Source: an uncultured Candidatus Saccharibacteria bacterium
Lineage (GTDB): Bacteria; Patescibacteriota; Saccharimonadia; Saccharimonadales; Saccharimonadaceae
Direction of reading: 5' to 3'
Length of the DNA stretch: 64,000 nucleotides
Assembly: GCA_947165465.1 (NCBI GenBank)
Contig: CAMVAM010000004.1
Location: 40,623 to 104,622 of the forward strand
The notes beneath the pieces are model-generated. The model searched no databases. It saw nothing but the letters and a program-made list of their open reading frames with translations, and was not told the origin of the DNA. The position numbers were made by a program, and so were the translations under genes. Below are positions 19,161-49,630 of this stretch, in pieces (within the stretch, counting starts at the first letter, position 1; every line of letters begins with the position of its first letter).

Positions 19161-19195
19161 TAAAACTGTATGCGAGAGTGTTGGAGGAAGGACCT

Positions 19196-22100
19196 GTGAG
19201 GGGTCCGATAAAAAAGCTAATTGCATTTATTTTACTCGCATTTACCAGCCTACTATTTACCAGTCGGGCGGTTTTTGCTACTTCAGAGCTAGAAGTTACT
19301 ATTTCGCCAGACCAAGTTTACATGAGTCTAATACCGGCTCAACTTGAGACGGAAGATCAAACAATTTCGGTCTCTACCGATAATGCCACGGGTTATCGAG
19401 TTATACTAACCACGGCCGGCACGTCTTCGGCACTTGTTGAAGTATCAGACGATACAAAGACCATACCAACACTCACTTTACCGAGCGGTGCTACCAGTAT
19501 CCCGGCTTCTTCAGTCGAAGATGGATATGGCTATAGTATTGATAATGGAGCGAACTTTTATCCAGTGCCAGAGCCATCAGCGGACCCGATTACGCTATTT
19601 ACTACTAATACAGCAGGCGACAATGAACATACTCTAACTTTTGGCGCTAACGTTCCAATCGACCTCGCCAAGGGTACATATACTAATACATTCAATATAA
19701 TTGTGATTGCCAATATTTTGCCATGTGATGCTGACAGTATTTGTTATGACGGCAATGGCGATGATAGAACGGGCTCAATGAGCAATCAGCTAGCCGAATC
19801 CAATTCGGAAGTAACGTTACTTGCTTCCAATTTCTCCCGTTCAGGATATGGTTTTGCGGGCTGGAATACTGAACCAGACGGTACTGGCACTAATTATGGT
19901 CCAAATCAAACAATCACGACTGGCGACCTTTCGGTAACCGGGTTACAGCTATATGCTCGCTGGATACCGTCATCGGGCAATCTACAAGGCTGGCGTGGTT
20001 GTGCCGGAATGACGGCTATCGATTATGACAATAATGGCGAATTAATAATGGCCGCGAACAGTATCACGGCTTTGACGGATACCCGTGACAACAATACATA
20101 TGCCGTGGTCAAATTTGCCGACAATCAATGCTGGATGATTGAAAACCTTCGTCTGAATCTAAATAACCCAAATTTGACAATTTCAAATGAAAACACTAAT
20201 AAACCGTCTGCGGATTTTGTCACGGCGGCCAATAATCATCCTGCATCATCAAATAGCTTTTGCGCTAATAACAATGCCACATGTAATAATCAAATCAAAT
20301 ATAACACCAATAACACGAACCGCAACTTAACTGCGTCTTATGACACAAATAACAACTCTAGCTCTTGGTATTCCTACGGACACTATTATAACTGGTATAC
20401 TACTACTGCCGGAAATGGCACTTACGGCACAAGTGATGAGGGGGCATCTGTCGATGGTGATATTTGCCCAGCCGATTGGCGATTGCCGTCTGGCTATGGT
20501 AGCGACGGAGATCTAGCGGTTCTTGATGTCGCCATGGGAGGAAATGGTATTAATAGAGCTTCTGGTACCCAAGCCGGTCTAGCCACCTCGAAGCGTTGGC
20601 GCACTTACCCATATAACTATATATTAAGCGGTGAATTCCGAAGCAACGCTGGTTATAATCGTGGTACTTCAAGTAGCTATGCTACACTTAACGCATTAAG
20701 CGCAGCCAATACTGCTAACCTCTGGTTAAAGCCGGATGGTGTTCATATGAACTCCAATGGCACAGCGAAAGTACGTGGGCAAACAGTACGATGTGTATAC
20801 AACCCGGGTGCCCACATAATCGGCAACATCCATTACGATGCTAATGAAGGTACTGGTACAGTGCCAGACGAAACCAACATCGACTTTAGCACTGCGGTGG
20901 CTGCAACTAATACTTTCACAAAAACACATTCTGTGTTCACTGGTTGGAACACTTTGGCTAACGGCAATGGTGTAGAAGTAAATGAAGGCGAATCGGTAGC
21001 TAATGCCGCTGAAAGCATGCATATTACTGATGGTCAAACCCTTACTTTGTACGCTAATTGGCGACCGCTGTATACTTTAGTTTATGACGGCAATGGCTCA
21101 GATGCTGGTGTTATGACAAGCGCTAACGTCAGCGATCTTGAACCGGGTCAAAAAACGCTGGTTGCCTCTAATTTCTCCCGCGTAGGCTATGGATTTGCGG
21201 GCTGGAGTCTAGATAGTGATGCCGGTACCAAACTCATGAATGGCCAAGCGGTAACAATTTATGGGCCAAATCAATCCATTACCGTCAATGACGAATTTTA
21301 CATCAATGCCGATCAGGAGAATCAAATCACTCTCTATGCAGTGTGGCTTGCGGCAGATTCTAATTACACACTACAATCGTTTAACTCGGCTAAGTGCGAC
21401 GATATGGAATTCGGCGAGTTTGTTGCTCTCAGGGATACCCGCGACAATAATGTATACTCTGTGGCTAAACTAGAAGACGGAAACTGTTGGATGGTGGAAA
21501 ACCTTCGTCTCGACCCATCTACCACCACCTTCAGCAGCAGTAACACCAATTCGCCTACCGCAGAATTTATCACAAATGCTCCAAATTCTTCCAGCTCTAA
21601 CACTCTATGTAACGATGACGAGGATACCTGTATAGATACAATTGGTTTCAACGCTAACGCAATAAATCGAAATCTTTCCCCATCATATAGCAACAACAGT
21701 GTAAGTAGATCATGGTATAGCTACGGCGTGATGTATAACTGGTATACGGCCACGGCTGGCAATGGTACTTACGATACTGATGGCACTAATGTAGCTGGCG
21801 ATATTTGTCCAACTGGATGGAGACTCCCAACTGGTGGCCAAAGCGGTGAATTTGCAAATCTCAATGATTTGGCAAATGATGGTTCCCTGATTACCGATGC
21901 TGGTCTGGTGAAGTTCCCTGACAACTTTATCTACTCCGGTGATTTTAATAACACTATACCTGGTGGACGCAACAGCTATGGCCGCTTCTGGAGTGCTACG
22001 TCCGAAGGCAATCTTAATGCCTATCGTCTAGGCATAGTAACTAGTGGCGCTACGCCGACCGGCTCATACAAGAAATGGGACGCTTTTGCCGTGCGTTGTA

Positions 22101-25100
22101 TTTACCCAGGTGTATTCCCTACATATTTGGAATATATTCTCGATTATGATGCTGACAATTATTCAGTTACTGTTCCGGAAGATGAAACGGCGAGCAGTCG
22201 AAACAACTCCTATGATTTCTCTATTTCAACTAGCACGATTCCTTCTCTCTATGGTTACACGTTCCTTGGTTATAGCAACACTAGTGGTGCCACTACACCG
22301 GACTATGTCTATAATGCCGTGAGTAATACCTTTACGCCAAGCACCATCACAATTAATAGTACTGGTGATTCTACCACGAAGACGATTTATGCCGTTTTTG
22401 AAGAGGACACCTGCCCAGCGGGATATATTTGTTATCTTGATAATGGAGCGGATGGCGGCGTCGGTACTATGGCGAACCAGCCGGCTACGTCTAATAGTAC
22501 TGTCACGCTAATTCCATCCAACTACTCTAAGACAGGCTATGGATTTGCCGGTTGGTCTGCATCAGATGACGGAGCACCATATGGTCCAAACGCCACTATT
22601 ACGACGGGAGACCTTAGTTCTGAAGGTCTGATGCTCTATGCTAGATGGATACCTTCTTCCGGTAGCCTTCAGAGTTGGACTGGTTGCAATTCTATGATTC
22701 AGGGCGACGTAATAGCTTTAACGGATACTCGCGACAATCAAACCTACACCGTAGCTAAGCTGGGTGATGAAAAATGCTGGATTGTCGAGAACCTCCGCCT
22801 AGATCCAGGAACGGCCACTATTACTGCTCAGAATACAAATAATCCGGTCGCCGGTTTTATAGAAGAGTCAAATGATAGTAATACCCATTCCCTAAACACG
22901 CTTTGTAATACCAGAAGTCTTGAATGTTTTGATCAGATTCAATATAACGCGAACAGTCTCAATAGGTCTTTGACACAATCCTACACTAACGACGATGCGG
23001 CAAGCGGATGGTATTCTTATGGCGTTTATTATAACTGGTATACCGCCACTGCTGGAAACGGCACCTTTAGTACCATGGAACAAAGTGGTCCAAACCATGA
23101 CGGTGTGCTTACGGGTGATATTTGTCCTTCGAACTGGCATTTACCAACTGGCGGCAGTGGTGGAGAATATAGTGTTCTGAATTCAGTAATTAATAATAAT
23201 TCGGACACTTCTGATGTTGTCTGGCGCGCATATCCAAACAACTTTGTCTGGTCCGGTGACTATAATAATAACAAGAGAAATTCGAGCTACTTAAACGGTA
23301 GAATCTGGACATCAACCGTAAAAGACAATGATAAAGCATACCGACTTGGATATGCAGAAGGAGTTTTACAAGCAAACGCAAATTCTTACAATAAATGGGA
23401 TGGTTTTGCGGTCAGGTGCGTCTTTAATGGCACCGCTACGGAGTATAATACTGTTACAGTGACATTCCCACAGCATGTCAGTAAAGTTACATTTGTTAGC
23501 AGTAAGTACGATACTGTAACGGCAACGAGCAGTAATAATACCGTGAGCTTAGCTAGAGGGACCACATATACTGTAACTGCCAGCATTGCATCTGGTTATG
23601 TACTAGACACTTGGACTGCAGGTGCGAATGGCTTTATTGGCGATTCCAACCAGAATCCAACCACCTTTGCAATCAATAATGATACCACTTTAACACTTTC
23701 AACTGCCCAAGCCACTAATTATGCAGTTACCGTTAATCTTGACGCCGGCACATCTAGCGTTAGCTTCTACCACGCGGATTATGGCACTCAGACCGCCACA
23801 AACAACAATAATAATGGTGATGGTACTGCAACGGTAACTATAAACTTGTATGCTGGCGTCAATTATACTATTACGTCTAATCTCTCCAACAATTACTCAT
23901 TTGATAGCTGGTCTACTACCGGAAATGGTACCCTAGGTTCCACCTTAAATGATACGACTACCTATTCGGTCAGTGGCGCCGCAGAACTTAGCGCCACCAG
24001 CCAAGCTTATCTAGGTCCAGAACCACCAGCATCTTGTAGCACCCCGGTTCCAAATATTACTTATATGCAAGAAATTAATACCAGCAACTATACTACAGTT
24101 CTAGGAACACTTATTACCGAGCAACCTTACTATCTAAGAGATTCTCGTGACGGCGAACCTTATTGCGTTTCGAAACTTGCCGATGGCCGTCTGTGGATGA
24201 TAGATAATTTGAGACTAGATCTTGGAAATAGCGATGTACTAGCCAACGTAACTGCAGCAAACACCAACGCTACTGCCGAACAACTTCAATATCTCAAGAA
24301 TGGCGGCGGTACAGCTAACGATCAATACCCAACCGCCGGTATCAACAGCACAGCTTGGACGAGTAGCAGCCAAGATTACTACAGCGTACCGATGTCGGTT
24401 TCTTCTGGCACATGTCTGAACTCGGGTTCTTGTGTCAATGAAAGCGGGACTAATTGGAACAAAGATTCTACAGTCACTGTCTATGGGAATGGTAGCGGAA
24501 AAGTTGGCGTCCTATATAATTACTGCGCTGTCTCTGCGGGTACTTATTGCTATGGCAATGGCACAGCTAAGACTAATATCCCGGAGACAGATTCTAATCC
24601 GTCTTCATATTATGATCTTGACGGCGACATTTGTCCTGCCGGTTGGCGTATGCCTACCGGTAACATATCCGGCGAGATTTATGGCCTCTACAATTATTAT
24701 GGCTATAGAAATGCAAGCTCTCCTTCTAGTTTGCAATATATGACTTCTATGCCTTTTGCTGGTGTCTTTATTTCAGGTAAATTCAATAGTTTCCCAGACT
24801 ATCAAGGCGGTATTTGGACTGCAACGAGAGGTACAAGCTCTAACCCACAGGAATTCATCGTAAGACAAAATACAATAACAATGAGCAATAGTCTTACTCA
24901 TAACTACGCCATCGCTACAAGGTGTATACTTGAAACTCCTACTTATACCGCTACCGTTAATTTTGCCGGCTCGGGTATTTCCAGTGTCACCATTTCACAC
25001 CCTGCCTATGATACTCAGACTGTGACGACCAGCGGCGGAACTGTTACTCTGAGATACGGCATAACCTATACGGTCACTACGGAACTAAACTCTGGCTATA

Positions 25101-25510
25101 GGTTCGTAAGCTATACTACAGCATCAAACGGCTCTCTGGAACCAGACAATACTAATCCAGCTAAATACACTATTACTGGCAATTCTACTTTGACAGTTAC
25201 CGGTGAGGCAATACCAACCTATACCACAACCGTGAATCTTGATGCACATACCACCAGTGTTACTATAGCCAATAACACGTTCGGTACTACCACAATCACA
25301 AATAGCAATAACAATGGCGACGGCACCCACACTGAAGCTCTGACTCTCTATGAGGGTGTATCCTATACTATAACTGCGGAATTTGAGACGGATTATCTCA
25401 TTAATACTTGGTCAACTACTGGCGGTACACTTGGTTCTACGACGGATAACCCTACAACCTTTACGGTTGGCGGCGCTTCAACTTTATCTATTACTAGTCA
25501 AGCGCCATAA
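19196..25510 (+). CDS. Giant exported FISUMP/InlB-repeat surface protein A
   Basis: About 2,104 residues. I start at GTG 19196, behind GGAGGAAGG; the track start at 19178 lies upstream of that site. A signal peptide (KKLIAFILLAFTSLLFTSRAVFA) is followed by a beta-rich domain ending GTYTNTFNIIVIANI, also found in two other exported proteins here. Then come alternating InlB-B-like repeats (GYGFAGWN...LYARWIP) and four FISUMP domains (Fibrobacter succinogenes major paralogous type: DTRDNN, CWMxENLRL, YNWYTA, DICPxxWRLP, xVRC). Four divergent InlB-like modules are included, the last two at the C-terminus. No LPxTG, membrane anchor or enzyme motif is seen. Likely an adhesin-like or host-contact protein; the role is inferred from architecture. 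Confidence 0.82.
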   Translation: MRGPIKKLIAFILLAFTSLLFTSRAVFATSELEVTISPDQVYMSLIPAQLETEDQTISVSTDNATGYRVILTTAGTSSALVEVSDDTKTIPTLTLPSGATSIPASSVEDGYGYSIDNGANFYPVPEPSADPITLFTTNTAGDNEHTLTFGANVPIDLAKGTYTNTFNIIVIANILPCDADSICYDGNGDDRTGSMSNQLAESNSEVTLLASNFSRSGYGFAGWNTEPDGTGTNYGPNQTITTGDLSVTGLQLYARWIPSSGNLQGWRGCAGMTAIDYDNNGELIMAANSITALTDTRDNNTYAVVKFADNQCWMIENLRLNLNNPNLTISNENTNKPSADFVTAANNHPASSNSFCANNNATCNNQIKYNTNNTNRNLTASYDTNNNSSSWYSYGHYYNWYTTTAGNGTYGTSDEGASVDGDICPADWRLPSGYGSDGDLAVLDVAMGGNGINRASGTQAGLATSKRWRTYPYNYILSGEFRSNAGYNRGTSSSYATLNALSAANTANLWLKPDGVHMNSNGTAKVRGQTVRCVYNPGAHIIGNIHYDANEGTGTVPDETNIDFSTAVAATNTFTKTHSVFTGWNTLANGNGVEVNEGESVANAAESMHITDGQTLTLYANWRPLYTLVYDGNGSDAGVMTSANVSDLEPGQKTLVASNFSRVGYGFAGWSLDSDAGTKLMNGQAVTIYGPNQSITVNDEFYINADQENQITLYAVWLAADSNYTLQSFNSAKCDDMEFGEFVALRDTRDNNVYSVAKLEDGNCWMVENLRLDPSTTTFSSSNTNSPTAEFITNAPNSSSSNTLCNDDEDTCIDTIGFNANAINRNLSPSYSNNSVSRSWYSYGVMYNWYTATAGNGTYDTDGTNVAGDICPTGWRLPTGGQSGEFANLNDLANDGSLITDAGLVKFPDNFIYSGDFNNTIPGGRNSYGRFWSATSEGNLNAYRLGIVTSGATPTGSYKKWDAFAVRCIYPGVFPTYLEYILDYDADNYSVTVPEDETASSRNNSYDFSISTSTIPSLYGYTFLGYSNTSGATTPDYVYNAVSNTFTPSTITINSTGDSTTKTIYAVFEEDTCPAGYICYLDNGADGGVGTMANQPATSNSTVTLIPSNYSKTGYGFAGWSASDDGAPYGPNATITTGDLSSEGLMLYARWIPSSGSLQSWTGCNSMIQGDVIALTDTRDNQTYTVAKLGDEKCWIVENLRLDPGTATITAQNTNNPVAGFIEESNDSNTHSLNTLCNTRSLECFDQIQYNANSLNRSLTQSYTNDDAASGWYSYGVYYNWYTATAGNGTFSTMEQSGPNHDGVLTGDICPSNWHLPTGGSGGEYSVLNSVINNNSDTSDVVWRAYPNNFVWSGDYNNNKRNSSYLNGRIWTSTVKDNDKAYRLGYAEGVLQANANSYNKWDGFAVRCVFNGTATEYNTVTVTFPQHVSKVTFVSSKYDTVTATSSNNTVSLARGTTYTVTASIASGYVLDTWTAGANGFIGDSNQNPTTFAINNDTTLTLSTAQATNYAVTVNLDAGTSSVSFYHADYGTQTATNNNNNGDGTATVTINLYAGVNYTITSNLSNNYSFDSWSTTGNGTLGSTLNDTTTYSVSGAAELSATSQAYLGPEPPASCSTPVPNITYMQEINTSNYTTVLGTLITEQPYYLRDSRDGEPYCVSKLADGRLWMIDNLRLDLGNSDVLANVTAANTNATAEQLQYLKNGGGTANDQYPTAGINSTAWTSSSQDYYSVPMSVSSGTCLNSGSCVNESGTNWNKDSTVTVYGNGSGKVGVLYNYCAVSAGTYCYGNGTAKTNIPETDSNPSSYYDLDGDICPAGWRMPTGNISGEIYGLYNYYGYRNASSPSSLQYMTSMPFAGVFISGKFNSFPDYQGGIWTATRGTSSNPQEFIVRQNTITMSNSLTHNYAIATRCILETPTYTATVNFAGSGISSVTISHPAYDTQTVTTSGGTVTLRYGITYTVTTELNSGYRFVSYTTASNGSLEPDNTNPAKYTITGNSTLTVTGEAIPTYTTTVNLDAHTTSVTIANNTFGTTTITNSNNNGDGTHTEALTLYEGVSYTITAEFETDYLINTWSTTGGTLGSTTDNPTTFTVGGASTLSITSQAP
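19723..25507 (+). repeat. InlB-B-like and divergent InlB modules in protein A
   Basis: Typical modules span about 19723-19970, 20818-21063, 21064-21357, 22106-22410 and 22411-22660; each ends LYARWIP, LYANWRP, LYAVWL or similar. Divergent modules with TVTVxFxxxVSxVTF...GYxxxxWTAxxNG...TLTL lie at about 23437-23715, 23716-24010, 24940-25215 and 25216-25507. They are probably beta-grasp or Ig-like spacers between FISUMP domains. Confidence 0.75.
19990..24935 (+). repeat. Four FISUMP domains of protein A
   Basis: Approximate spans: 19990-20804, 21364-22108, 22676-23430 and 24029-24935. Each has DTRD/DSRD, a tryptophan-containing WMxxNLRL, an NWYTA/NYCAV turn, DICPxxWR and a closing RCV/RCI. Domains 1-3 have six cysteines, including an internal C-x6-C pair (FCANNNATC, LCNDDEDTC, LCNTRSLEC). 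Domain 4 has TCLNSGSC and extra cysteines. Confidence 0.8.
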
Positions 25511-42786: not shown

Positions 42787-42898
42787 GTGAACCTTTTCTT
42801 AATTTTATCATATTTTAATCTTATTTATGCAATAAAAAATCTCGAAATCAAGCTTATGCTATATGACAAAAAATGATAAAATTATATGGAACAAGGTT

Positions 42899-45800
42899 AT
42901 GTTATTGGGCAAAAGAAACAGAGGGATGAAGATATCCGAATTTCGTAGAATTCGGAGGCCTTTGACAGTTGGAGTTTATTCCCTGTTTATCTTGATTGGT
43001 ATTGGTTTTTTGCTGCCGTTCGCTAGGACCCAAAGCTCAGTAGAGGCTCTTATTGACCTAACCGGCGAAGCATCTATTACGATGACATCGATAAAAAACA
43101 GCGCCACGGTCACAATTGATCCGTCAGCGACCGGTGTATTCGAAACTACATCAGGTGAAGGTGATATTGCATTCTCTGTTTCGACTACTAATTACACTGG
43201 CTATACGCTTTCCGCCCGTAGCACAGTGACGACGCTTAATAAAGAGACTAGCTCGATTGCTTCCCTCACTTCCGGAGTTACAGCTGAACAGTTCGCACTA
43301 GGCGGGAACACTACCCTTAGTAACCGTTGGGGCTACAAACCGAGCTTCTACAATTCGGAGGCAAATAGCTATTACTTTGGCTCCTCTACATCTGCAGTGA
43401 CGCTTGACCATACGGTAGCTGCAAATAGCACAGCAAAGGATTATACTATCTCACTTGGCGCAAGAGTCGACAATACGCTCCCTTCCGGTAGCTATATCAA
43501 CGATAATTTCATCTTGGAAGCCGTTGCGAACGTCGTTCCAACATCAATACTCACAATTAGCTATGGAGACCATGTTACCGGTGTAAGTATTGGTGGCACA
43601 AACGTGACTAGTGGCGAAACGGTTAAACTAATCGTCGGTGCCCCATATAGTATTTCCATGACGACCGACCAATATTTCAATCGTGCTAGCTGGACGGCAA
43701 CCACCGGCACTATCGCGTCAGCTAGTTCTCTTTCAACCACATATACCATTACTTCGAGTAATGCCACTTTGACTGCAACTGGTTTATTCAATGGTCCGGA
43801 AATCCAAAACCTTAGTGACGCCAACTGTACCTCAACGGCCAGCCTCGCTATAGATACTCGCGACGAGACGATTTATCAGGTTAAACGCCTCGAGGACGGT
43901 CGTTGCTGGATGATGCAGAATCTCGACCTCGGTCGTACAGCGCTTTCGGCAGATCTTACAAGTAGTAACACGAATATCTCCTCGACAATCTCTTTCTCGA
44001 CATTTAATAACTGGATTAAAGCGGCTGGTACTTGGACATATTCAGACGGCGAAGTGATTCCTGTCACCGGTACCGATTCGGTTTCTGATGTTCCATATGG
44101 TACCCTGTACAACTATTATGCAGTTTCAGCCGGTACGATTGCCGGTTATACAAATGCTAATAACGCAGTTTATGATATTTGCCCAGCCGGATGGCGTCTC
44201 CCGACCGGTGGCACAAATGGAGAATTCGCCGGTGTTTACGCCTATCACGACTCTTATAATGGTTTCCGCGCCTCCGAAGCTGACGGCGGTCTAGCTTACC
44301 CACTTTCTGGTGCATTTGTGCAATCCGGTCCGGGATCTGTGGACACCGCAGGTATTTATTGGGCATCGACCATCTCGACTGGTAGCAACTGGGCCCAGGG
44401 TAAGTACGATATTTCGATGCAAGAATTATATATTACAGAAGCGATAGAAGAACCAATCGTAATCGAAGAGCCATCAGTCTTCCTTGGTGATGCAGACTAT
44501 CGCACGCTAGGCATCGCGGCTCGTTGTATCAAAAAACGTGCATCGCATACCCTAACGGTAAACTATGGTGCTGGCGTCCAAGCTGTCTATGTCAACGGCA
44601 ACCTTATCGCAAACGCCGGTACAATCAGTATTGAAGAAGGCGTCCCACATCCAATTAAAGTGATATTTGATAAGAACTATGCATTCAGTAGCTGGTCTGC
44701 TACGTCTGGCACTATCGGCACAGCAAGCGAGCAGTTCACTACTTATGCTATAGGAAGCTCCAACGCTACACTTACGGCAAACGGTGCAGTGTTTACTGGT
44801 GGCGTAATTCAAAATCTTGACTCCTCGTTATGTACGACAACTGAAGCTAAGTTTAAAGACAATCGTGACAACCAGGTTTACACTGTCAAACGTCTCGCCG
44901 ATGGTAGATGTTGGATGATGCAAAACCTCGATCTCGGGCGTACGAGTTTAACTGTAGACCTAACCAGTGCAAACTCAAATCTCGAAACAACGGTACCTGC
45001 TGCAACATTTAATAGTTGGGTTACAAGTTCCTCCCCGGCCGCCAGCTATGATACTGGTGTAGTATACCCAGCAAGTGGTATGGTCCTTGAATCAGATATT
45101 CCAAAAGGTACATATTATAACTTCTATGCGGCTAGTGGTGGCTCAATTTCTGGTTCATCGAATGCCAATAACGCCACGCATGATATCTGCCCGGCCGGTT
45201 GGAGATTGCCAACCGGAGGCGCTAATAGTGAAATGAGAAAAATGAGCGATTTGTATTCTGAAGACTTAATGATTAGAACGCCGAGCGCAATGGGTGGTGC
45301 AGCATTTGGTATTGCAGGGTACTTTAATACCGCCGGCTCAATCTTAAGCAGCTATGGTGATTATTGGACCGCAACTCGTTCTTCAAATACGAACATGAGG
45401 TATTTAATGACGTTTGGCAGTGGCTATGGCTATAACGATAATAGCACTTTGAACCGTAGAAGTGGCGCTTCAATTCGTTGTATTCTTGATCAAATGACTA
45501 TCTCTGATTTGCAATACTTGCAAGACTTTGCTTCCCTCACAAATCAAGAAAGGAGTGAGGTTTTATCGAGCATGCTAGAAGGCCAAACCTACCAGCTAAC
45601 CGATAACCGCGACAGTAAGGTTTATGATATTGCAAAGATGAAAGACGGGCACATTTGGCTTGCCGAAAACCTTGATCTTGGTCGCACTACTTTGTCTAAC
45701 GACCTTACTAGTGCTAATACCAATTTAAGCAACACAATTCCGTATGCCACATTTAATGGGTGGAAGAAATCAACCGGCACTATGACTTATGCTAACGGTG

Positions 45801-48800
45801 AGTTCATTAATGTTACCGGTACTGATGAGGCGTCTGGTACCGCATATGGCACACTATATAATTATTATGCAGCTACGGCAGGTACCATTAAAGGCAGCGA
45901 AAGTGGCGAAGATGCCCACTTTGATATCTGTCCAGCTGGCTGGAGATTACCAACCGGTGGCTCTTCAGGGGAATTTCAAGCTCTCTACACCGAGTATCCA
46001 AGCAACGCACGGATGAGAGCTCCAATCGCTGAATCCGGTGCCGCGTTTACGCTTGCCGGCGTATTCTATGGTGGAGCCCCAACCTATCAAGAAACCAATG
46101 GCCGTCTCTGGTCCTCGACGAGAGTTGATAGCTCAAATGTAAATATCAATTTCATGAGTACTACGGGCGTTAGCCCGGCTAGTACTAATGGTCGCCGTGA
46201 TGGGTGCTCAATTAGGTGCATTGTTAAAACTAACGTCTATACGCTTACTATTTCGTATGGTACAGGCGTTTCCGGTGTTGTAATTAATGGTGTTACATAT
46301 CATAATGGCGATACGGTTAATCTCGAACCGGGCGTCTCGAATACAATTACCATGACGACATCACCAGCCTATGCATTCACCACCTGGTTAGCAACTTCTG
46401 GCACTGTCGGAAACGTCCTAGCCCAGTCTACTACGTACACTATTGGATCAACTAATGCGACATTGTCAGTAACCGCAACCTTCTCGCCACCAAACCTCCA
46501 AAACATCGACCAGTCTAACTGTACCTCAACCCCATCAATTGCGGTAGATACACGCGATGATCATCTATATACTATTCAACGCCTCGACGACGGCAATTGT
46601 TGGATGATGGAAAACTTAGACCTTGGCCGCACCACGCTTACCACAGACCTTACGAGCTCAAATACAAATCTTTCCACCACTATTACGGCAGCTACATTTA
46701 ACAGCTGGAAGAAGACTGGTGGCGGCCCATCATTTACTGATGGTGAATTCATCTCTATATCTGGTACAGATTCTGTTTCTGACACAGACTATGGCACATT
46801 GTATAACTATTATGCTGCCTCGGCAGGAACTGTTTCTGGCAATGTTAACCGTAATAATGCAGTTTACGATCTTTGCCCTGCGGGATGGCGACTCCCAATC
46901 GGCACCGTTAATGGAGAATTTCAAGAATTATACTCATACTACAACTCGGCTAATAGCATTAGAGCATCAATTAATGATTCTGGGGCTGCGTTCGCTTTAG
47001 CGGGGGATTTCCTTCAAGGCGCACCAGTGAGACAAGGAAGCGACGGCTTCTATTGGACTTCTTCAAATGGCTACACTGATACAGGCGTATTCGCCCTAGT
47101 TGTACATACAACGAGCGTATATCCGAGCAGTGGCGCTGATCGTAATCTTGGTGCTTCGATTCGTTGTGTAGCCAAAAAAACAGCTCACTCAGTAACTGTC
47201 ACATATGCTACCGGTATTTCAAACGTCACAGTTAATGGTACCTCCGTCCCTAATGGCGGCTCTATTAGCCTTGAGGAAGGCGTAAAATATGCAATAAATG
47301 CATATGTTTCCACAGGTTTCTCTTGGGGTGCATGGTCGGTATCGTCTGGCACAATTGTCCAGTCCAGCTCGTCATCAATGATATATACAATAGGAACTAC
47401 AGACGATACAATTACAATGACCACAACATTTATTGGTCCAAATATTCAAAACCTTGCACCGAATAATTGTACTTCAACACCAAACAACGCTAAGGACACT
47501 CGTGATGGACGTATATACACTATTAAGCGTCTCGACGATGGCAATTGTTGGATGATGGAAAACCTCGACCTTGGCCGTACCACGCTTACTACGGACCTTA
47601 CAAGTTCCAACACAAATTTATCCACCACTGTTACGGCAGCAACATTCAATGGTTGGAAAAAGACTACCGGCTCATATACATTAACTGATGGAGAATATAT
47701 CGCCATATCAGGCACAGACTCCGTGTCCAATACGGAATATGGCGTACTATACAACTATCACGCCGCCACCGCTGGTACTGTTACTGGTAGTACAAACAAT
47801 AAAGATGCAAAATACGACATTTGTCCAGCCGGATGGAGATTGCCAACCGGCAATACGGAAGGTGAAATCTACGAATTATATGAAGAATATCATTCCAATG
47901 CACTCATTAGAGCATCTATCAATGACTCCGGGGCTGCCTTTGCACTTGCTGGCCATTTCTATAACAGCACTCCGACTGCTGAGGGATCCTATGGCCATTA
48001 TTGGACTTCCACGCGGGCCAACGATGCAAGCATGTACAATTTTTATCTAAGCACTTCAAGTGTGACGCCGGCAAACTATAATCATAGAGGAACCGGAAGC
48101 TCTATGCGCTGTATATTAACAGAGCCAAAGACAATATCCGATCTAACATATATGCAAGATTTTAGGAAACTTGCTGACTACGATAAAGCATCAGTGATAG
48201 CATCAATGTCCTATGATACTACCTATGACCTTATTGATAATCGAGATAATAGAACATATAAAGTCGCGAAGTTGAAGGATGGTAATATTTGGATGGCGGA
48301 AAACCTAGATCTCGGTCATACGAGCTTATCGGTAAATCTTACAAGTACAAATACGAATGTCAGTACATCGGTTACAGCTGCTACTTTCAATGGTTGGATT
48401 ACTACTTCTGCGGTAGGAACTAATGATGCCGGTGAAGTAATGGCCGTCTCGGGAACTGATGAAACATCCGGTACGGCTTATGGCACGCTATATAATTATT
48501 ATGCTGCATCAGCCGGAGAAGTAACGGGCAGTTCGTATACAGCAAATGCAAATAATGATCTTTGTCCTGCTGGATGGAGAATGCCAACTGGTAGTATGTA
48601 TGGAGAAATGTATCAATTGTATAGTGTGACCGATTATAATTCTCCAACGTTGTTTAGGACACCAATTACGAGTGGTGGAGCTGGTTTTTCACTCGCTGGA
48701 GTTGCTTGGAGCGGTACACCAGAATATACCTCATATTATGCCAGTTATTGGACGTCCACGATGGCTAGTAGTACTCTTGCGTATAGAGCTAGTATGAATA

Positions 48801-49630
48801 AAACTAGTGTCGGTGCGGATGGTAGTGATAATAGATCGCCACTTGGTTCAATCCGTTGCATCGCAAAGCTGACGGATAATATAATTAGCGATTATACGTA
48901 CATGCAAGAGCTACGCACGCTAACTGCTGAGACGAAGGAAATACTCATGGAATCAATGACGGCTAATGCAAATTATACTTTGACAGATGCACGTGACAAT
49001 GCGTCGTATACAATTTCAAAGCTCAATAACGACAGCATTTGGATGACGCAAAACCTCGATTTAGGCCGCACTGACCTAACGATTAATCTAATGTCATCTA
49101 ACACGAACATTGATGTCCCATCTGTTTCTGCATCCACATTTAACGGTTGGCGCAAAACATCTGGGACCAACACAACCGATGCTGGCGAATATATAAATGT
49201 ATCAGGCACAGATTCGGTCAATGGTTCAGCGCATGGCACGTTGTATAATTACTATGCGGCGACGGCAGGAACTATCTCGGGCACCTCTAACGACACCGCT
49301 GCCACTTACGATATCTGTCCTGCAGGTTGGCGACTTCCAACTGGAGGCCCTACTGTAAATGCTGATATATACAAAATGTATAGCGCTACTGGCTATGGTA
49401 CGTATGACAGTATGAGGCAGTCAAACGCTAATGGCGGGCTCGGCTTCACGCTAAGCGGTTATTTCCAAAATGGTGTTGCCTTCAACCAGAATAACTACGG
49501 GAATTACTGGGCGTCAAACGCATACTCTACTGCAAACAGATATATCTTCTATTTCACAGCTACAGTTGCATATCCAAATCGTAATAACGCTCGTGGGTAT
49601 GGCTATTCAATTCGCTGCATTTTGAAATAA
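42899..49630 (+). CDS. Giant exported FISUMP surface protein B
   Basis: About 2,243 residues. The start is uncertain: the track ATG at 42863 lies upstream of the likely -10 (TGATAAAAT), so I use 42899; 42926 is also possible. A basic N-terminus and one span (LTVGVYSLFILIGIGFLLPFA) precede a beta-rich domain shared with protein A. Seven FISUMP domains (DTRD, CWMMxNLDLGRT, YNYYAA, DICPAGWRLPTGG, SIRC) follow, separated in part by ~85-residue Ig/InlB-like modules. Domains 3, 6 and 7 instead follow a helical linker (LQYLQDFASLTNQE-like) and lack two cysteines. No C-terminal anchor or LPxTG is seen; the hydrophobic N-terminus may be an anchor or a signal. Probably an adhesin-like protein. Confidence 0.82.
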   Translation: MLLGKRNRGMKISEFRRIRRPLTVGVYSLFILIGIGFLLPFARTQSSVEALIDLTGEASITMTSIKNSATVTIDPSATGVFETTSGEGDIAFSVSTTNYTGYTLSARSTVTTLNKETSSIASLTSGVTAEQFALGGNTTLSNRWGYKPSFYNSEANSYYFGSSTSAVTLDHTVAANSTAKDYTISLGARVDNTLPSGSYINDNFILEAVANVVPTSILTISYGDHVTGVSIGGTNVTSGETVKLIVGAPYSISMTTDQYFNRASWTATTGTIASASSLSTTYTITSSNATLTATGLFNGPEIQNLSDANCTSTASLAIDTRDETIYQVKRLEDGRCWMMQNLDLGRTALSADLTSSNTNISSTISFSTFNNWIKAAGTWTYSDGEVIPVTGTDSVSDVPYGTLYNYYAVSAGTIAGYTNANNAVYDICPAGWRLPTGGTNGEFAGVYAYHDSYNGFRASEADGGLAYPLSGAFVQSGPGSVDTAGIYWASTISTGSNWAQGKYDISMQELYITEAIEEPIVIEEPSVFLGDADYRTLGIAARCIKKRASHTLTVNYGAGVQAVYVNGNLIANAGTISIEEGVPHPIKVIFDKNYAFSSWSATSGTIGTASEQFTTYAIGSSNATLTANGAVFTGGVIQNLDSSLCTTTEAKFKDNRDNQVYTVKRLADGRCWMMQNLDLGRTSLTVDLTSANSNLETTVPAATFNSWVTSSSPAASYDTGVVYPASGMVLESDIPKGTYYNFYAASGGSISGSSNANNATHDICPAGWRLPTGGANSEMRKMSDLYSEDLMIRTPSAMGGAAFGIAGYFNTAGSILSSYGDYWTATRSSNTNMRYLMTFGSGYGYNDNSTLNRRSGASIRCILDQMTISDLQYLQDFASLTNQERSEVLSSMLEGQTYQLTDNRDSKVYDIAKMKDGHIWLAENLDLGRTTLSNDLTSANTNLSNTIPYATFNGWKKSTGTMTYANGEFINVTGTDEASGTAYGTLYNYYAATAGTIKGSESGEDAHFDICPAGWRLPTGGSSGEFQALYTEYPSNARMRAPIAESGAAFTLAGVFYGGAPTYQETNGRLWSSTRVDSSNVNINFMSTTGVSPASTNGRRDGCSIRCIVKTNVYTLTISYGTGVSGVVINGVTYHNGDTVNLEPGVSNTITMTTSPAYAFTTWLATSGTVGNVLAQSTTYTIGSTNATLSVTATFSPPNLQNIDQSNCTSTPSIAVDTRDDHLYTIQRLDDGNCWMMENLDLGRTTLTTDLTSSNTNLSTTITAATFNSWKKTGGGPSFTDGEFISISGTDSVSDTDYGTLYNYYAASAGTVSGNVNRNNAVYDLCPAGWRLPIGTVNGEFQELYSYYNSANSIRASINDSGAAFALAGDFLQGAPVRQGSDGFYWTSSNGYTDTGVFALVVHTTSVYPSSGADRNLGASIRCVAKKTAHSVTVTYATGISNVTVNGTSVPNGGSISLEEGVKYAINAYVSTGFSWGAWSVSSGTIVQSSSSSMIYTIGTTDDTITMTTTFIGPNIQNLAPNNCTSTPNNAKDTRDGRIYTIKRLDDGNCWMMENLDLGRTTLTTDLTSSNTNLSTTVTAATFNGWKKTTGSYTLTDGEYIAISGTDSVSNTEYGVLYNYHAATAGTVTGSTNNKDAKYDICPAGWRLPTGNTEGEIYELYEEYHSNALIRASINDSGAAFALAGHFYNSTPTAEGSYGHYWTSTRANDASMYNFYLSTSSVTPANYNHRGTGSSMRCILTEPKTISDLTYMQDFRKLADYDKASVIASMSYDTTYDLIDNRDNRTYKVAKLKDGNIWMAENLDLGHTSLSVNLTSTNTNVSTSVTAATFNGWITTSAVGTNDAGEVMAVSGTDETSGTAYGTLYNYYAASAGEVTGSSYTANANNDLCPAGWRMPTGSMYGEMYQLYSVTDYNSPTLFRTPITSGGAGFSLAGVAWSGTPEYTSYYASYWTSTMASSTLAYRASMNKTSVGADGSDNRSPLGSIRCIAKLTDNIISDYTYMQELRTLTAETKEILMESMTANANYTLTDARDNASYTISKLNNDSIWMTQNLDLGRTDLTINLMSSNTNIDVPSVSASTFNGWRKTSGTNTTDAGEYINVSGTDSVNGSAHGTLYNYYAATAGTISGTSNDTAATYDICPAGWRLPTGGPTVNADIYKMYSATGYGTYDSMRQSNANGGLGFTLSGYFQNGVAFNQNNYGNYWASNAYSTANRYIFYFTATVAYPNRNNARGYGYSIRCILK
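43548..47440 (+). repeat. Ig/divergent InlB-like spacers of protein B
   Basis: Four modules at about 43548-43800, 44540-44800, 46235-46490 and 47185-47440 share LTISYGxxVxxVxxNG...GxxxxIxMxxxxxYxFxxWxATSGTIxxxSxxxTTYTIGSxxATLT. Each directly precedes a cysteine-rich FISUMP domain (1, 2, 4 and 5). Confidence 0.75.
43800..49627 (+). repeat. Seven FISUMP domains of protein B
   Basis: Approximate spans: 43800-44535, 44810-45490, 45500-46230, 46490-47170, 47440-48120, 48130-48870 and 48880-49627. Domains 1, 2, 4 and 5 have a cysteine before DTRD and another in CWMM. Domains 3, 6 and 7 lack both (IWLAEN, IWMAEN, IWMTQN). All seven keep the pair in ICPAGWR/LCPAGWR and the closing RC. Confidence 0.82.

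Follow-up and report, generated by a model that had tools for sequence, protein, structure and literature searches.

In this study, we believe that the FISUMP domain of a Candidatus Saccharibacteria bacterium is very probably an exported binding module, in which one disulfide bond would be obligatory and a second would be an optional staple that is dropped where domains stand in direct tandem. The domains were studied in protein B, which lies in a window of 64,000 nucleotides (the whole stretch of DNA that was analysed), and four of their cysteines are named here C1 (before D-x-RD), C2 (in CWMM), C3 (in CPAGW) and C4 (in RC). In the proposed model, the C3–C4 bond, from CPAGW to RC, would close a loop of approximately 100 residues with a hypervariable, strand-rich face, and this face may bind ligands on partner cells. 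The C1–C2 staple would tie the N-terminal segment and the first beta hairpin together, and would be used where the domain begins the protein or comes after a flexible spacer, and dropped where the domain packs directly behind another FISUMP domain via a short linker, whose packing would replace the staple. Local pairs such as C-x6-C and C-x7-C would be optional additions. The model is built on observations of which cysteines are present or absent, of their parity, of context, of changes that are independent on a tree, and of the hypervariable stretch within the C3–C4 loop; from these we infer that the bonds themselves form in FISUMP domains.

Protein B, protein A and their cysteines

The host genome has a size of 785 kb, and in the genome collection it stands closest to Candidatus Saccharibacteria, for the most part from the ruminant gut. 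The FISUMP profile gave 31 matches in the host genome, and proteins A and B are two among its several large FISUMP-domain proteins. In a profile search, protein B matched TIGR02145 (E 8e-71) and PF09603 (E 1e-59) in seven stretches each, with 238 and 202 bits against curated cut-offs of 41.65 and 33.9 bits, respectively. A hydrophobic segment was read from the sequence at its N-terminus, and protein B is predicted to be secreted or membrane-anchored.

The first-pass annotation had placed C1 and C2 in domains 1, 2, 4 and 5 of protein B and C3 and C4 in all seven domains, and each of these cysteines was located (Table 1). It had also described domains 3, 6 and 7 as lacking C1 and C2 together; indeed, neither cysteine occurs in any of the three, where the sequence is IWLAEN, IWMAEN and IWMTQN, respectively. 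Its placing of C1 before DTRD is right as a position, except that the motif of domain 2 is DNRD. Domain 3 carries a further cysteine that had been overlooked, Cys1115 (RRDGCSIRC; window positions 46205-46207), a lone and likely free thiol at a place where relatives show a hypervariable column.

Table 1. Features of proteins A and B (window positions) and retroelement loci of relatives (positions within each locus); pLDDT refers to a structure model
Feature	Position	Strand	Cysteine codon starts	Cysteine residues	Remarks
Protein B	42863..49630	+			ORF; 2255 aa, 23 Cys, seven FISUMP domains; PF09603, TIGR02145
Domain 1	43784..44542	+	C1 43826, C2 43904, C3 44180, C4 44525	322/348, 440/555	4 Cys
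Domain 2	44789..45502	+	C1 44831, C2 44909, C3 45188, C4 45479	657/683, 776/873	4 Cys
Domain 3	45503..46234	+	C3 45929, C4 46217; lone Cys1115 46205	1023/1119	without C1/C2
Domain 4	46478..47182	+	C1 46520, C2 46598, C3 46874, C4 47165	1220/1246, 1338/1435	4 Cys
Domain 5	47426..48127	+	C1 47468, C2 47546, C3 47822, C4 48110	1536/1562, 1654/1750	4 Cys
Domain 6	48128..48874	+	C3 48563, C4 48857	1901/1999	without C1/C2; direct tandem with domain 5
Domain 7	48875..49627	+	C3 49316, C4 49616	2152/2252	without C1/C2; direct tandem with domain 6
Spacer before domain 2	44543..44788	+			PF18998 E 7e-4, below curated cut-off
Similar spacers	43544-43783, 46235-46477, 47183-47425	+			PF18998 E ~0.05 for two, below curated cut-off
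Protein A	19178..25510	+			2110 aa, four FISUMP domains; paralogue of B
Protein A domain 4	24023..24931	+			8 Cys; pLDDT 86.9
DGRs of gut Saccharibacteria	L036:4164-8221, L041:3237-8286, L098:1-3613

Because domains 6 and 7 hold only C3 and C4, a single intradomain pairing is possible in them, namely C3–C4, and besides the lone Cys1115, domain 3 holds C3–C4 only. C1 and C2 are added jointly on top of C3–C4, so the remaining pairing would be C1–C2. In the AlphaFold (AF2) model of domain 4 (pLDDT 97.7, pTM 0.93), strands 20-24 and 29-35 form the first hairpin, and by its register C1 (residue 15) would stand opposite approximately residue 38, near C2 (residue 41). The seven domains of protein B amount to approximately two lineages only (3, 6 and 7 versus 1, 2, 4 and 5). 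Since the split is one between two paralogue subtypes, the seven domains alone are weak evidence and not seven tests; the domains of relatives were therefore gathered, and the tests on 335 domains carry the statistics.

Protein A had been said to add a third, internal C-x6-C pair. This is true of its domains 1-3, which hold the C1–C2, C-x6-C and C3–C4 pairs, and untrue of domain 4, which has C-x5-C and C-x7-C instead. The remaining cysteines of domain 4 are Cys1620 far upstream, Cys1663, C3 and C4. The CWM cysteine is absent, and Cys1663, seven residues past D-x-RD (Y-C-V), looks like a relocated C2.

Cysteine parity and the sequence before the domain

The discovery set comprised 230 distinct FISUMP domains from the host genome and 74 loci of relatives, and the held-out set comprised 105 domains from other loci, less than 85% identical to the discovery set and among themselves. 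All 335 domains are from Saccharibacteria and none from Fibrobacter or Bacteroidota, and the rule is stated for the former. The first-pass annotation had proposed counting the co-occurrence of cysteines, and the count agreed with it: C1 and C2 come and go jointly, and the internal cysteines are even in number. C3 and C4 were invariant (335/335), including in domains without any other cysteine. An upstream cysteine accompanied C2 in 202/202 domains (131/131 in the discovery set and 71/71 in the held-out set), at spacings from -6 to -42. No upstream cysteine was found in 108 of the 133 domains without C2, with 45 to 60 residues examined. Most of the others had two cysteines, which can pair with each other, or a shifted partner (Y-C-V, R-L-C), and approximately four (L060, L194, L159 and L153) had an unmatched upstream cysteine within the 60 residues examined. 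Between C2 and C3, there were 0, 2 or 4 cysteines and an odd number in 0/335 domains, versus a mean of 149 and a minimum of 120 odd domains in column shuffles. In L046, L035, L010, L066, L067 and others, the first FISUMP domain of the ORF has two upstream cysteines in a cap (CNxxATTIxTGxxxTDAVCMQD) and no C2; this cap may be an alternative, self-paired staple.

On a tree of FISUMP domains built without the cysteine columns under test, the C2 state switches 57 times or more. Among the contrasts that were both supported and independent, 14 in all, C2 went with C1 in 13.2 and against it in 0.1 (p ~2e-4). In a mean-field coupling analysis of 27,261 column pairs, the C1 flag and column 46 (C2) ranked first, partly by construction because the flag is defined by upstream cysteine parity, and the C-x7-C pair, which is free of that effect, ranked second. 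The bonds predicted earlier, C1–C2 and C3–C4, are the simplest partition fitting the 335 domains and are supported by covariation, and we regard them as a well-supported prediction from sequence.

The first pair had also been claimed to track with the preceding sequence. C2 was present in 87/98 domains behind a spacer of more than 60 residues (absent in 11) and absent in 92/94 domains directly behind another FISUMP domain (present in 2), and nine independent contrasts gave 6.0 for this association and 0.1 against. The context rule was weaker in the held-out domains, where C2 occurred in 22/30 after a long spacer. This part of the claim stood, and the Ig-like nature of the spacer did not. No Ig-like match was obtained, and the best match, below threshold, was PF18998; the spacer might be a divergent InlB B-repeat-like sequence. 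We believe that the N-terminal staple is most likely replaced by packing directly against the domain before it.

The covariation could also reflect co-inheritance only, with C1 and C2 in one exchangeable N-terminal block, staple and linker subtypes being shuffled as blocks by recombination and no bond being formed; the tie of the pair to the preceding sequence fits this. The gap between C1 and C2 is approximately 26 residues, so block gene conversion could shift both together, and the two subtypes of protein B differ in linker as well. However, parity holds at varied C1 spacings (-6, -9, -13 and -23) and with a relocated C2 (YCV, RLC), self-paired upstream cysteines appear in the stead of a missing C2, the internal pairs are also even, and almost no domain among the 335 has just one of C1 and C2. 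This explanation is improbable. Cysteine pairs of metal sites covary too, but we hardly credit the binding of zinc or iron in place of disulfides, given that no conserved His or Cys lies near the pairs, that their spacings are C-x6-C and C-x7-C, that the protein is predicted to be exported, and that two-cysteine domains would leave only two metal ligands. Bonds of C3 or C4 with that of a neighbouring domain, conceivable in tandem arrays that reach eight domains, are just as hard to credit, because single-FISUMP ORFs keep C3 and C4, though some of these ORFs end at a contig edge. Bonds within the domain, C3–C4 always and C1–C2 by context, remain the preferred reading.

Targeted hypermutation and the proposed disulfide frame

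Inside the C3–C4 loop, 21 columns form a patch in which 58-74% of comparisons differ among domains that are 70-90% identical. Positions 1 and 2 of the patch codons change, and the third base is kept in 83-90% of replaced residues versus approximately 42% elsewhere in the domain, the signature that mutagenesis of adenines leaves in AAY codons. Three loci of relatives (L036, L041 and L098) carry a diversity-generating retroelement (DGR): behind the FISUMP gene come an accessory ORF and a reverse transcriptase (RT) with IGNLTSQ, and an N-rich template lies on the opposite strand (in L036, GNYWSSTRNNDTNMYNLNLNTSNVNPANNNNRNNGNAIRCVLK). The targets differ from the templates at 26/60, 30/61 and 21/63 A and at 0/143, 0/126 and 0/136 non-A positions, respectively. 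A homologue of the L036 RT was found in 37/60 same-genus genomes. In L102:6935-8098, the RT alone was seen.

Compared with the L036 template, an internal FISUMP domain on another contig of the host genome (G000:C6:30818-31002, - strand, inside L112) is changed at 30/58 A and 1/135 non-A positions, and by these A-specific differences it appears to be a near-perfect DGR target. The host assembly (98.3% complete) gave no match to the L036 RT or template, and at this completeness a gap could account for their absence. The host RT at G000:C1:55184-55771 (L108; 328 aa, motifs LPQGCPTSAS and YIDD) was rejected as the DGR RT since its motif is QGCPTSA and not IGxxxSQ; it may be retron-like or of another non-DGR type. 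Domains 4 and 5 of protein B differ in 90% of hypervariable columns versus 29% elsewhere. Domain 5 differs from the L036 template at a fraction of 0.43 of A and 0.35 of non-A positions, without A-bias, and the third codon base is not kept among the protein B domains. The data therefore do not support protein B as a target of ongoing DGR activity, and with the third base no longer kept, its variation would be no more than an ancient or indirect outcome of such mutagenesis.

The C4 codon lies within the template end and is free of A in all three templates, so mutagenesis cannot remove the closing cysteine. In 12 clear targets, which are not all independent and whose mutagenesis may depend on neighbouring bases, 0/256 template AAY codons had turned into TGY (Cys) versus 22.6 expected from base frequencies. 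Other residues were common at these codons, Tyr above all. Free thiols thus appear to be purged, and the simplest reading would be selection against them in a disulfide-dependent fold. Twelve discovery domains, that with Cys1115 included, have a single cysteine in this region, in all cases TGT or TGC and nearly always in hypervariable columns. We give an even chance to the wider proposal that, in the arrays of FISUMP receptors displayed by gut Saccharibacteria, C3–C4 clamps a face rewritten by DGRs, the C4 codon being A-free, that cysteines newly created by mutagenesis are lost by selection since they would upset the disulfide pairing, and that tandem copies swap the second disulfide for packing; within the host genome, a DGR-rewritten face is claimed for one FISUMP domain outside protein B.

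Known systems and meaning

The FISUMP/Fib_succ_major family (TIGR02145, PF09603) comprises many-copy surface proteins with cysteines near CPxGW and near the C-terminus, and protein B, which is predicted to be exported, resembles it in these respects. The text of TIGR02145 calls the conserved cysteines suggestive of disulfides. The pairing thus adds detail to a family already known, in which disulfides had probably been suspected before. What sets the present domains apart is the optional C1–C2 staple, the association of this staple with the sequence before the domain, and a parity rule; the open literature that was searched yielded no account of these.

Bacteria of the CPR have been reported to be enriched in an MdbA-like oxidase (PMC6744442). 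As with actinobacterial MdbA and its CPR homologues (PMC6744442), the host has a thioredoxin-fold protein that is anchored in the membrane and carries a CxxC motif, here CPYC. These two points speak for the formation of bonds, whereas the lack of a recognizable DsbB or VKOR speaks against it. Unlike the MdbA system, no recognizable DsbB or VKOR was found in the host genome; a GCPTCG membrane protein is encoded beside the gene instead. It overlaps or abuts the gene of the CPYC protein in 12/12 loci (L216-L227; in the host, L105:1390-2692, contig C3), occurs in 27/30 same-genus genomes, and is a candidate redox partner of the CPYC protein.

Known DGR target proteins comprise C-type-lectin-like, DUF1566, FGE-sulfatase and Fib_succ_major domains. 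Fib_succ_major has been listed as a DGR target (PMC4159848), and for the targets of CPR clade 2 an absence of recognizable domains has been stated (PMC8144416). The FISUMP genes of L036, L041 and L098 share the RT, the template and the A-specific changes of known targets; the differences are that variable FISUMP domains also stand within tandem arrays, that protein B has no A-bias and that the host has no RT or template. C-type lectin domains also have a variable face near the C-terminus and a cysteine in the last strand. Foldseek with the domain model gave weak matches to lectin-fold chains (gp42, snaclecs, langerin and rhodocetin) and to 4EPS. No match in the PDB reached E <= 0.001, so a lectin fold is a candidate assignment here. 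By sequence, FISUMP proteins had no real match in the PDB. Phage and plasmid collections gave no DNA or protein relatives, and two weak loci on viral contigs were excluded from the analysis.

FISUMP domains are abundant, and the sequence search gave no relative with a solved structure. A bond map derived from evolution guides their expression, by an oxidising route and with C1 inside the domain boundaries. It also indicates where the binding face is probably located. CPR retroelements were already known, and the stronger novelty would be a disulfide frame coupled with targeted hypermutation in gut Saccharibacteria. The link to the retroelement offers a concrete model for how reduced episymbionts could vary the surface that they use on partner cells.
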